This document shows, in pieces, positions 33,659 through 35,914 of a DNA stretch of 64,000 nucleotides (position 1 is the stretch's first letter; every line of letters begins with the position of its first letter). Under the pieces are notes generated by a model. That model did no database searches. It saw only the letters and a list, made by a program, of their open reading frames with translations, and had not been told where the DNA came from. Both the position numbers and the translations under genes were made by a program. This DNA is from Futiania mangrovi. GTDB lineage: Bacteria > Pseudomonadota > Alphaproteobacteria > Futianiales > Futianiaceae. Location of the stretch: NCBI RefSeq assembly GCF_024158125.1, contig NZ_JAMZFT010000001.1, positions 124,001 to 188,000 of the forward strand, in the 5' to 3' direction.

Positions 33659-34612
33659 ATGCCTTCAGCCATGCGCGTGATTGTGGTCGCGTCTCAGAAG
33701 GGCGGTGCTGGGAAGACCACGCTGGCGGGACATCTGGCGGTCGAGGGGGAGCTTGCGGGCAACGGACCCGTGGCGCTGATCGATACCGATCCGCAGGGCT
33801 CGCTTGCGACGTGGTGGAACGCGCGCAATTCGGCGGCGCCGGCCTTCGTGCGGACCGACTTCTCGACGCTTTTCCACGACGTCGAACAGCTGCGCGAGGC
33901 CGGTTTCCGGGTCGTGGTGATCGATACCCCGCCCGCCGTGACCCGCGCGATCGCGGAGGTCGTGAGCTTCGCCGACCTCGTGGTGCTGCCGACCCGGCCC
34001 AGCCCGCACGACCTGCGCGCCGTCGGTGCGACCGTCGACATCATCGAGGCCAAGCGCAAGCAGATGATCTTCGTTGTCAACGGTGCCACGCCGCGGGCCC
34101 GGATCACGTCCGAGGCTGCCGTCGCGCTGTCGCAGCACGGCACGGTTGCGCCTGTGACCATCCATCACCGCGTCGACTTCGCTGCCAGCATGATCGACGG
34201 CCGCACCGTGATGGAGACCGATCCCGAGGGGTCTTCGTCGAAGGAAGTCAAGGCGCTGTGGGAGTATATCGCGACCCGCCTCGAAAAGGTCGCGCGGGAA
34301 ACCGCAGTCCAGGCGCCAGCCGTCGGGGCCCGTCCGCCAGGTGTGCTTTCGCCCGCGATCCCGCCATCCGAGCGTCCGGGTTTCGGGCAGAGACACGCCG
34401 CCGCAGCCGGCACCGCCGCGCCGCAGCCGGGCGTGGCGCGCGACACGGCGTCTGCCGTCGAGCGGCCCGCGTCCCCTGCCGAGGCCGCTCCGCAGGACGG
34501 CGCGGCGCATGCGGCCCCTGCGCAGGCGCCTGCTGCCGGCGCTGCCCGGCGCTTTGGCGGTGCCACGCTCGGCAGGCCCGGCACCACCTTCGGCCGCCGT
34601 GCCCACACTTGA
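33659..34612 (+). CDS. ParA-family ATPase with extended Ala/Pro-rich tail
   Basis: 317 residues. The first 215 form a compact ParA/MinD ATPase: deviant Walker A ASQKGGAGKTTLAGH (14-21 KGGAGKTT), LIDTDPQGSLATWW, Walker B VVVIDTPPAVTRAIAE and VLPTRPSPHDLRA. It lacks the N-terminal HTH of type Ia ParA and is closest to type Ib (ParF-like) and orphan cargo-positioning ParAs. A roughly 100-residue low-complexity tail follows, ending basic (RRFGGATLGRPGTTFGRRAHT). AGGGGA is 7 nt before the ATG. The next gene, 27 nt downstream, has features of a ParA partner. No parS, parB, repA or minCE is visible. Confidence 0.85.
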   Translation: MPSAMRVIVVASQKGGAGKTTLAGHLAVEGELAGNGPVALIDTDPQGSLATWWNARNSAAPAFVRTDFSTLFHDVEQLREAGFRVVVIDTPPAVTRAIAEVVSFADLVVLPTRPSPHDLRAVGATVDIIEAKRKQMIFVVNGATPRARITSEAAVALSQHGTVAPVTIHHRVDFAASMIDGRTVMETDPEGSSSKEVKALWEYIATRLEKVARETAVQAPAVGARPPGVLSPAIPPSERPGFGQRHAAAAGTAAPQPGVARDTASAVERPASPAEAAPQDGAAHAAPAQAPAAGAARRFGGATLGRPGTTFGRRAHT

Positions 34613-34639
34613 ACTTCCAGCCGGATCAGGATGCACGCC

Positions 34640-35182
34640 ATGGCCCGTAACAAGTTTGCCACGCTCCACTCCGGTCTCCTCGTACGGAAAGGGGAAGCCG
34701 AGCCCGCTCCACCGCCTGCGTTGAGCGCACTCGACATGCCGGCGCAGGAACTGGGAGCGGAGAACATGCGGGGACGCAAAGGGATCGCCCAGCCGCACGG
34801 CGGCGCGCTGTCGCCGGGGCTGAGCCGTTTGCTGGGCAGTGCAGACGCCGCGGCGCACGCGGCCGGTCCCGACGACATCGATGCCTTCTATGGGGACGAG
34901 GAGGCCGATGCGTTCGACGAGGGCGCTGACAGGGACGAGGAGGCAACCGCGCAGGTACACTCGATCCGGGACATCCTGGCCCGGCAGCGCAGGATCACGC
35001 CCGTCTCGATCAACGAGAGCGTGCAGCGCCGCCGTGACGGAACGCTGCTGGTGACGGTCCCGCTGAGCGCGGACGAACTCGAAAAGCTGCGCGCGGTTTC
35101 CCGTGTGCGCGACGAACGCATGTCGGACGTGCTGCGTCAGGCGGTCGTGGCCTTCCTCGTCGCCGAGGATCCGGACGCCTGA
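34640..35182 (+). CDS. putative ParA partner with basic N-terminus and ribbon-helix-helix-like C-terminus
   Basis: A 180-residue protein I do not recognise as a named family. The N-terminus MARNKFATLHSGLLVRKGEA is basic and Gly-Leu containing, like the ATPase-activating peptides of ParB/Spo0J and ParG proteins. A disordered middle follows, acidic at about 80-110 (DDIDAFYGDEEADAFDE). The last 50 residues (GTLLVTVPLSADELEKL...RMSDVLRQAVVAFLV) read as beta strand, helix, helix, the ribbon-helix-helix pattern. AGGA is 9 nt before the ATG at 34640; another ATG is at 34631. Its link to the upstream ParA suggests a two-gene partition or positioning module (inference). Confidence 0.7.
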   Translation: MARNKFATLHSGLLVRKGEAEPAPPPALSALDMPAQELGAENMRGRKGIAQPHGGALSPGLSRLLGSADAAAHAAGPDDIDAFYGDEEADAFDEGADRDEEATAQVHSIRDILARQRRITPVSINESVQRRRDGTLLVTVPLSADELEKLRAVSRVRDERMSDVLRQAVVAFLVAEDPDA

Positions 35183-35491: not shown

Positions 35492-35914
35492 ATGCAGTCG
35501 AGAGATGAGATCATCGACATGACGGCCGATATCGTGTCGGCCTATGTCGGTAACAACAGCGTACCGGCCAGTGAACTGCCTGCATTGATTTCCAGCATTC
35601 ACGGAGCACTTCTCGCGGCCTCCGGTGGGAAGCCGGTCGAGGCAGAAGAGCAGATGCGCCCGGCAGTGCCGGTGAAGAAGTCCGTTCAGGACGAGCAGAT
35701 TTCCTGCCTGATCTGCGGCGGGTCGTTCAAGTCGCTGCGCCGCCACCTCGGTACGCAGCACAATCTGACGCCTGAGCAGTATCGCGCGATGTGGGGACTG
35801 GCCCCCGATTACCCGATGGTCGCGCCGTCCTATGCCAAGGCCCGCTCGGACCTTGCAAAGGAGATGGGCCTCGGCAAGCGGCCGGCGTCGGGAAAGGCCA
35901 GCGGCAAGCGCTGA
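35492..35914 (+). CDS. mucR: MucR/Ros family zinc-finger transcriptional regulator
   Basis: 140 residues. The prokaryotic Cys2His2 finger is intact: Cys72, Cys75, His85 and His90 in [20 protein letters not shown], with the nine- and four-residue spacings of Ros. The N-terminal [31 protein letters not shown] helix region and [38 protein letters not shown] tail are typical of MucR, which acts as an H-NS-like silencer and affects motility and cell-cycle genes in several alphaproteobacteria. It is followed by a strong hairpin. Confidence 0.94.

Follow-up and report, generated by a model that had tools for sequence, protein, structure and literature searches.

A conserved N-terminal tag in the partners of a subfamily of alphaproteobacterial ParA ATPases

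The window analysed here, a stretch of 64,000 nucleotides from Futiania mangrovi (contig NZ_JAMZFT010000001.1), carries a ParA-type ATPase gene followed by the gene of a partner protein with a ribbon-helix-helix (RHH) C-terminus. This pair is probably a chromosomal ParA system of the type Ib kind, in which a conserved tag at the N-terminus of the partner would dock on and activate the ATPase while the RHH domain would carry a DNA cargo. In related loci the same tag stands before other C-terminal modules, and we lean, by a modest degree, towards the view that one ParA subfamily uses a single conserved docking peptide as a portable address tag, put on RHH proteins, FtsN-like SPOR proteins, HTH proteins and an extra DivK-like copy, so that positioning would be redirected from DNA towards the septal wall or polarity signalling. 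As judged from conservation, this goes beyond an earlier sequence-only reading of the same DNA in two respects: the basic N-terminus of the partner is a conserved tag, and the RHH domain is one of several modules paired with this ParA.

Results

The parA gene and its partner

The features of the locus, all on the forward strand and in window coordinates, are as follows.

33659..34612, +, parA, 317 aa, type Ib-like ParA ATPase without an N-terminal HTH domain (NF041546 and ParF matches)
33671..34285, +, ParA core domain (aligned with ParF and nine relatives, 58-72% identity)
33698..33721, +, deviant Walker A box KGGAGKTT (sequence reading; invariant in an alignment of 10 relatives bar A/S at one position)
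34286..34609, +, Ala/Pro-rich C-terminal tail of ParA (sequence; tail length differs among relatives)
34589..34600, +, FGRR motif close to the end of the ParA tail (common to most RHH-paired relatives)
34640..35182, +, partner gene, 180 aa (ORF and partner family alignment; alternative start at 34631)
34655..34708, +, N-terminal tag FATLHSGLLVRKGEAEPA, proposed ParA-docking and ATPase-activating peptide (conservation across loci)
34865..34954, +, acidic linker, probably disordered (13 D/E in 30 residues; pLDDT about 50-60)
35045..35170, +, ribbon-helix-helix domain, residues 136-177 (profile, model, Foldseek, shuffles)
35492..35914, +, mucR, a conserved neighbour in the clade of the window's ParA and only a putative member of the module (ROS_MUCR in Pfam, 3.7e-49)

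Reading of the open reading frame confirmed what had been claimed for the first gene, a ParA-fold ATPase with the deviant Walker A box KGGAGKTT and a long Ala/Pro tail. Its description as short holds for the core of about 210 aa, but not for the whole protein of 317 aa, to which the Ala/Pro-rich tail contributes about 105 aa. The Walker A box lies at residue 14, so that this is a small ParA from which the N-terminal HTH of type Ia is absent, and both lysines of the box, including the signature lysine, are invariant in the alignment of relatives. The nearest solved structures are ParF of TP228 (4dzz, 8.9e-17) and the ParA of 5u1g. The match to NF041546, 'ParA family partition ATPase' (1.3e-51, 175 bits), falls below the curated cut-off of 180, as does, slightly, that of a sister ParA subgroup. 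Near the end of the tail, the relaxed motif FG[RQA][RQ] was present in 31 of 47 RHH-paired and in none of 11 SPOR-paired ParAs, counts that are not corrected for relatedness, and the strict form FG[RQ]R occurred in 0.3% of shuffled ParA tails. FGRR is possibly a further short motif connected with the DNA-bound form.

The partner begins with MARNK... at 34640; with the in-frame ATG at 34631 as its start it would have 183 aa. Its spacing of 27 nt from the parA stop and its 180 residues are as previously described, and the basic N-terminus, acidic middle and strand-helix-helix C-terminus attributed to it were all seen, in composition counts (4 K/R and 2 D/E in residues 1-30; 13 D/E and 1 K/R in residues 76-105) and in the structure model. 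The window's partner sequence had no match in Pfam, NCBIfam or the PDB.

Conservation of the gene pair

A subfamily profile was built from ten relatives of the window's ParA, with a mean column identity of 73%. Among members of the class its matches score at least about 286 bits, with almost none thereafter until below 225, and by this measure the window's ParA belongs to a discrete alphaproteobacterial subfamily. Of 387 alphaproteobacterial genomes sampled, about 52, belonging to many families, have the high-scoring form, at times in two or three copies; in one family exactly one copy is found in 76 of 100 genomes. In a sample of the phylum (397 genomes), every ParA match at E 1e-75 falls in the same class. 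The window's genome has one copy of the subfamily, together with another ParA, from the broader NF041546 group (C4:88125), which lacks a tag downstream.

In 64 of the 66 subfamily loci that were fetched the partner gene lies directly downstream of parA, and the gap is at most 60 nt in 61 of them (median 8 nt); one locus, L124, has no recognisable partner. A search of 57 relatives with the window's partner alone found nothing because its linker and RHH domain are too diverged, and it was the search via ParA that worked. In the ParA tree the window's clade (98% support) has RHH partners wherever these are readable. The order parA-partner-mucR is repeated in Parvibaculum indicum (L001) and the pair itself across the class, so that the pair proposed from one sequence is real and is conserved in relatives.

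The partner carries a divergent ribbon-helix-helix domain

When a profile of 23 partner C-termini was run against PDB sequences, ParG came first (5.7e-5), followed by CopG-like proteins, PutA and, weakly, omega. A Pfam scan of 31 partners gave 12 matches to Antitox_RHH, the others matching RHH_10, HicB, RHH_1 and ParG with E values of up to 1. A default search with a profile omitting the window's partner misses the C-terminus of that partner; with filters off, the same leave-out profile scores the window's RHH at 11.2 bits in the correct register and above 4000 of 4000 shuffles. The window's RHH is thus divergent and fits the profile of its own family weakly.

In the AlphaFold2 model of the window's partner, residues 144-157 and 161-176 form helices, with a pLDDT of 93-98 over the block; this model is not fully independent, because the RHH regions were already lined up in the input alignment. 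Foldseek on the model ranked ParG at the top (E 0.43, probability 0.82, a match that alone is not significant), with many RHH proteins below it, and a single-sequence model of the C-terminus gave again a strand-helix-helix, at low confidence. The RHH fold suggested earlier is thus upheld by the family profile, the AlphaFold2 model, the Foldseek rank and the shuffle test, the window's sequence alone being weak. With fold and gene pairing both found, the outcomes that would have refuted the earlier reading, a model lacking the RHH fold or a rarely conserved pair, did not occur, and the pair is supported as the chromosomal relative of type Ib pairs, a small ParA with an RHH protein, that it had been taken for.

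As a side observation, many chromosomal RHH partners (e.g. L085, L099, L101, L135) have a CxC motif (ECPCI, NCACL) after the RHH domain, which neither the window's partner nor the plasmid partners have and which is possibly a metal site or a redox switch.

A conserved tag at the partner N-terminus

Partner proteins of the subfamily start with a tag of the consensus (S/T)L-x3-LL-x-R-K-G-x-A-x-P-A. On a tag score, 55 of the 66 true loci lie above the highest value (43.0) among 2791 random windows from the same contigs, while 22 loci of other ParA groups reach 32.5 at most, with 0 of 22 above the random maximum; as the score derives from the consensus of these same partners, the controls carry the weight and not the absolute figure. 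The weak loci include L001, L125 and L126, which have lost the KGxAxPA half but retain the first, namely SL or TL, x3, a pair of hydrophobic residues, x and Arg; L048, L131 and L133 retain the KGxAxPA half in altered form. The erosion of the second half in L001, from Parvibaculum indicum, the closest named relative (FATLNAGMMTRR), shows that this form of the tag is no strict requirement.

Of 22 genomes carrying this ParA, 20 matched a DNA pattern for the tag, mostly at the partner, and the 6 genomes lacking the ParA had no match; the control, a similar pattern read backwards, gave scattered background matches. With a stricter pattern the partner is the only match in the window's genome; a looser one gave 2 other matches there against 1 in the reversed control, which lends no support to a second tagged protein in this genome. 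Within a given genome the tag is nearly confined to these partner-type proteins. A literature search, with subscription papers outside its scope, found no published description of the ParA-tag-RHH pair or of its tag.

Known partners of ParA/MinD proteins activate the ATPase by short basic N-terminal peptides (PMC10241942, PMC12204374, PMC13170346). Binding to the dimer interface is by hydrophobic residues of these peptides, and hydrolysis is set off by a basic one (PMC13170346, PMC12204374, PMC10241942). The tag has Leu-Leu and Arg-Lys, both elements of the published peptides, and for this reason we propose it as a ParA-docking and ATPase-activating peptide, with the C-terminus as a putative cargo adaptor. 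Its basic, hydrophobic and conserved character is consistent with stimulation of the ATPase by the partner N-terminus.

At ten loci (L037, L039, L089, L090, L091, L094, L097, L117, L118, L122) a related unannotated protein is encoded downstream of the partner. It has no Pfam match, is PAS-like by eye and often starts with SLxxVxxR; the likeness of this start to the tag was considered and is faint, too little for a claim.

Exchange of C-terminal modules behind the tag

Behind the tag we found the RHH domain in most loci, the window included, and also SPOR, HTH and an unknown helical domain. In the SPOR type (11 loci) the tagged partner has one transmembrane helix and a C-terminal SPOR domain, and basic residues are commoner on the tag side of the helix; the predicted layout is that of FtsN, with the tag cytoplasmic. 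The L093 partner has a helix-turn-helix (HTH_17, 1.8e-4, below the cut-off) and that of L115 looks alike, while the L096 partner has the unknown helical domain. On the ParA tree the SPOR label requires 1-2 changes and the HTH label one, so the modules have been switched a few times, in a direction that the tree does not establish. Genomes with two copies often have one RHH and one SPOR pair (L047/L048, L102/L105, L107/L108, L127/L130). A separate gene for a TPR and SPOR lipoprotein was also noted after the RHH partner, about 500 nt downstream of parA, in L040, L084, L086, L087 and L088.

In two species of one genus (G271 and G398) a response regulator gene follows the SPOR partner gene, and in G271 its TTG start overlaps the SPOR gene end.

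L121, 7296-7937 region (G271:C51:12799-13434), and L202 (G398:C89:335-982): tagged DivK-like receiver, after the SPOR partner

The response regulator has an N-terminal extension, SLFARKGAASAEGFAP, and the corresponding SPOR partner reads SLIVRKGAASARGFAE; common to both is KGAASAxGFA, a likeness that exceeds the family consensus. The receiver looks DivK-like by eye, NCBIfam giving general response-regulator matches only. Both genomes also have an ordinary untagged DivK-like homologue elsewhere, and nine other genomes of the same family have only matches without the tagged extension. A SPOR partner and a tagged receiver in one operon are the best single hint that two proteins may dock on one ParA.

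Genomic setting

The pair is flanked by a divergent MFS transporter gene upstream and, after mucR, by an ABC-F ATPase gene. No evident cargo was recognised among these three neighbours, and comparison with related loci gave no conserved cargo gene beside the pair apart from mucR. In the window and in L001, L048, L131 and L133 mucR comes next after the partner, and in L100 and L102 farther downstream; the adjacency is old synteny in the clade of the window's ParA. Compared with chromosomal ParABS, the partner is not ParB, and the genome's best PF13614 match is another ParA (C2:403607). No rep gene was found among the neighbours that were checked, and the setting is chromosome-like, in agreement with the earlier statement that neither ParB nor Rep genes adjoin the pair.

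Upstream of parA, no parS-like repeats rose above shuffles (300 nt in the window; about 65 relatives), a distant or unusual site being possible, and alignments of close groups showed no shared RHH operator. Two observations concern the upstream regions of other loci. An element TTAA-N7-TTA(G/T), GTTAACCnaaaaTTAG-like, which recalls the CtrA box and is absent from the window, is kept upstream of parA in one family (L084, L086, L087, L180-L194), and a DUF2336 protein (PF10098, 7e-46) is encoded 2-6 kb upstream of parA in 15 loci from several lineages (e.g. L094, L102, L106).

Plasmid relatives and known systems

ParAs of 55-63% identity are found on plasmids of other proteobacteria, among them Xanthomonas, Comamonas, Deefgea, Pseudomonas and E. 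coli (e.g. pAG1, pZM22-2), with the partner directly downstream, e.g. MSKTASLTSGLVAKKGQAAPA...RHH, and several of these pairs lie beside rep genes. Several plasmid pairs also have short repeats by the parA promoter, unlike the window and the chromosomal relatives. The plasmid copies sampled for the ParA tree branch inside the chromosomal family, close to G004 and G132, a topology that fits either order, plasmid first or chromosome first. A phage origin was also considered and rejected, with a single distant phage match at 39% identity.

The unnamed plasmid ParA-tag-RHH pairs resemble the window's pair in having a ParA of the same family and a tagged RHH partner next downstream, but their partners are of about 80-115 aa, mostly with short linkers, with rep genes beside and with promoter repeats. 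With ParF/ParG of TP228 the pair shares a small ParA without HTH and an RHH partner just downstream with a flexible basic N-terminus; it differs in being chromosomal, no rep gene or parS cluster having been found beside it, in a ParA tail of about 105 aa with FGRR at its end, and in a partner of 180 aa with an acidic linker. We know of no similarity between the tag and the ParG N-terminus, none being evident by eye. Delta/omega of pSM19035 also combines a ParA with an RHH partner, omega being weakly reached by the partner profile, but belongs to another ParA branch, has another N-terminal peptide and requires plasmid iterons.

PpfA/TlpT of chemoreceptor clusters and McdA/McdB of carboxysomes are, like this pair, chromosomal ParA-type ATPases with partners other than the ParB of oriC; McdB acts via a basic 20-residue N-terminus (PMC12204374). 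They belong, however, to other ParA branches and operons, and the window's pair adjoins no chemotaxis or carboxysome gene. The term 'luggage tag' has been put forward for ParA/MinD partner peptides as an engineering tool and for unrelated systems (PMC10241942), whereas here one conserved tag is naturally joined to several unrelated modules that accompany one ParA subfamily. The pair resembles type Ib in its parts and probably in the way it works, but with no detectable parS and no plasmid setting it is not filed as a type Ib partition system.

Discussion

The comparisons show the pairing of the genes, the conservation of the tag, the RHH fold and the exchange of modules behind the tag; for the window's genome we infer from this docking, ATPase activation, nucleoid binding and a DNA cargo, in the following manner. 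ATP-bound ParA dimers would coat the nucleoid, and the partner would dimerise via its C-terminal RHH and bind DNA specifically, most probably at one site or a few on the chromosome, its own promoter included. The disordered acidic linker would hold the tag out, so that its Leu-Leu could dock on the ParA dimer and its Arg-Lys trigger ATP hydrolysis; ParA would then leave the DNA locally, and the partner-bound cargo would track the ParA gradient. As the window's adaptor is an RHH domain, DNA to which this domain binds is the most likely cargo.

One alternative is that a plasmid partition pair was retained or domesticated and is now no more than an autoregulated transcription unit that positions nothing. 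In its favour are the common role of RHH proteins as repressors, the same tag and RHH partner beside plasmid ParAs up to 63% identical and the lack of a parS cluster upstream of the chromosomal parA genes. We consider this alternative unlikely, since the ParA core is 73% conserved across many families and a single copy is kept in 76 of 100 genomes of one family, since the tag, needless for a pure repressor, persists when SPOR or another module replaces the RHH domain, and since the nesting of the sampled plasmid copies inside the chromosomal family means that a plasmid origin is not shown. That the pair positions a non-DNA cargo, with the RHH domain serving only dimerisation or autoregulation, is in our view rather improbable. 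Homologous ParAs have SPOR/membrane proteins as partners and, in two species, also a DivK-like receiver, from which it follows that the lineage handles non-DNA cargo, and the missing parS fits this too; but all readable partners in the window's own clade are RHH proteins, and apart from mucR no conserved cargo gene was found beside the pair.

A further idea is that MucR, a nucleoid protein of the H-NS-like kind, works together with the pair, e.g. in the positioning or remodelling of MucR-bound DNA. The five loci in which mucR directly follows the partner and the two in which it is farther downstream speak for it, but these 7 of 66 loci all belong to one clade, in which several related loci are without mucR, and we regard the idea as very improbable. 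Both chemoreceptors and MucR-bound DNA had been named as possible cargos in the sequence-only reading, and we found no support for them beyond the mucR adjacency. A chromosomal system of the type Ib kind with a DNA cargo is the reading that we hold most probable for the window's pair.

How ParA-type ATPases gain new cargos is an open question, and their partner proteins have been described as extremely diverse, sharing little but positive charge. The most interesting point is here the exchange of modules behind one tag, for which the evidence lies outside the coordinates of the window's pair: when a peptide is conserved while the cargo module changes, a specificity code becomes readable by comparison, and with the tag as a search signature partners can be looked for where a ParA is otherwise an orphan. 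In addition, a chromosomal ParA family is linked to SPOR proteins and to a DivK-like regulator in alphaproteobacteria that are under cell-cycle control. The sharing of this tag by quite different proteins suggests a natural address tag for the positioning of different cargos.
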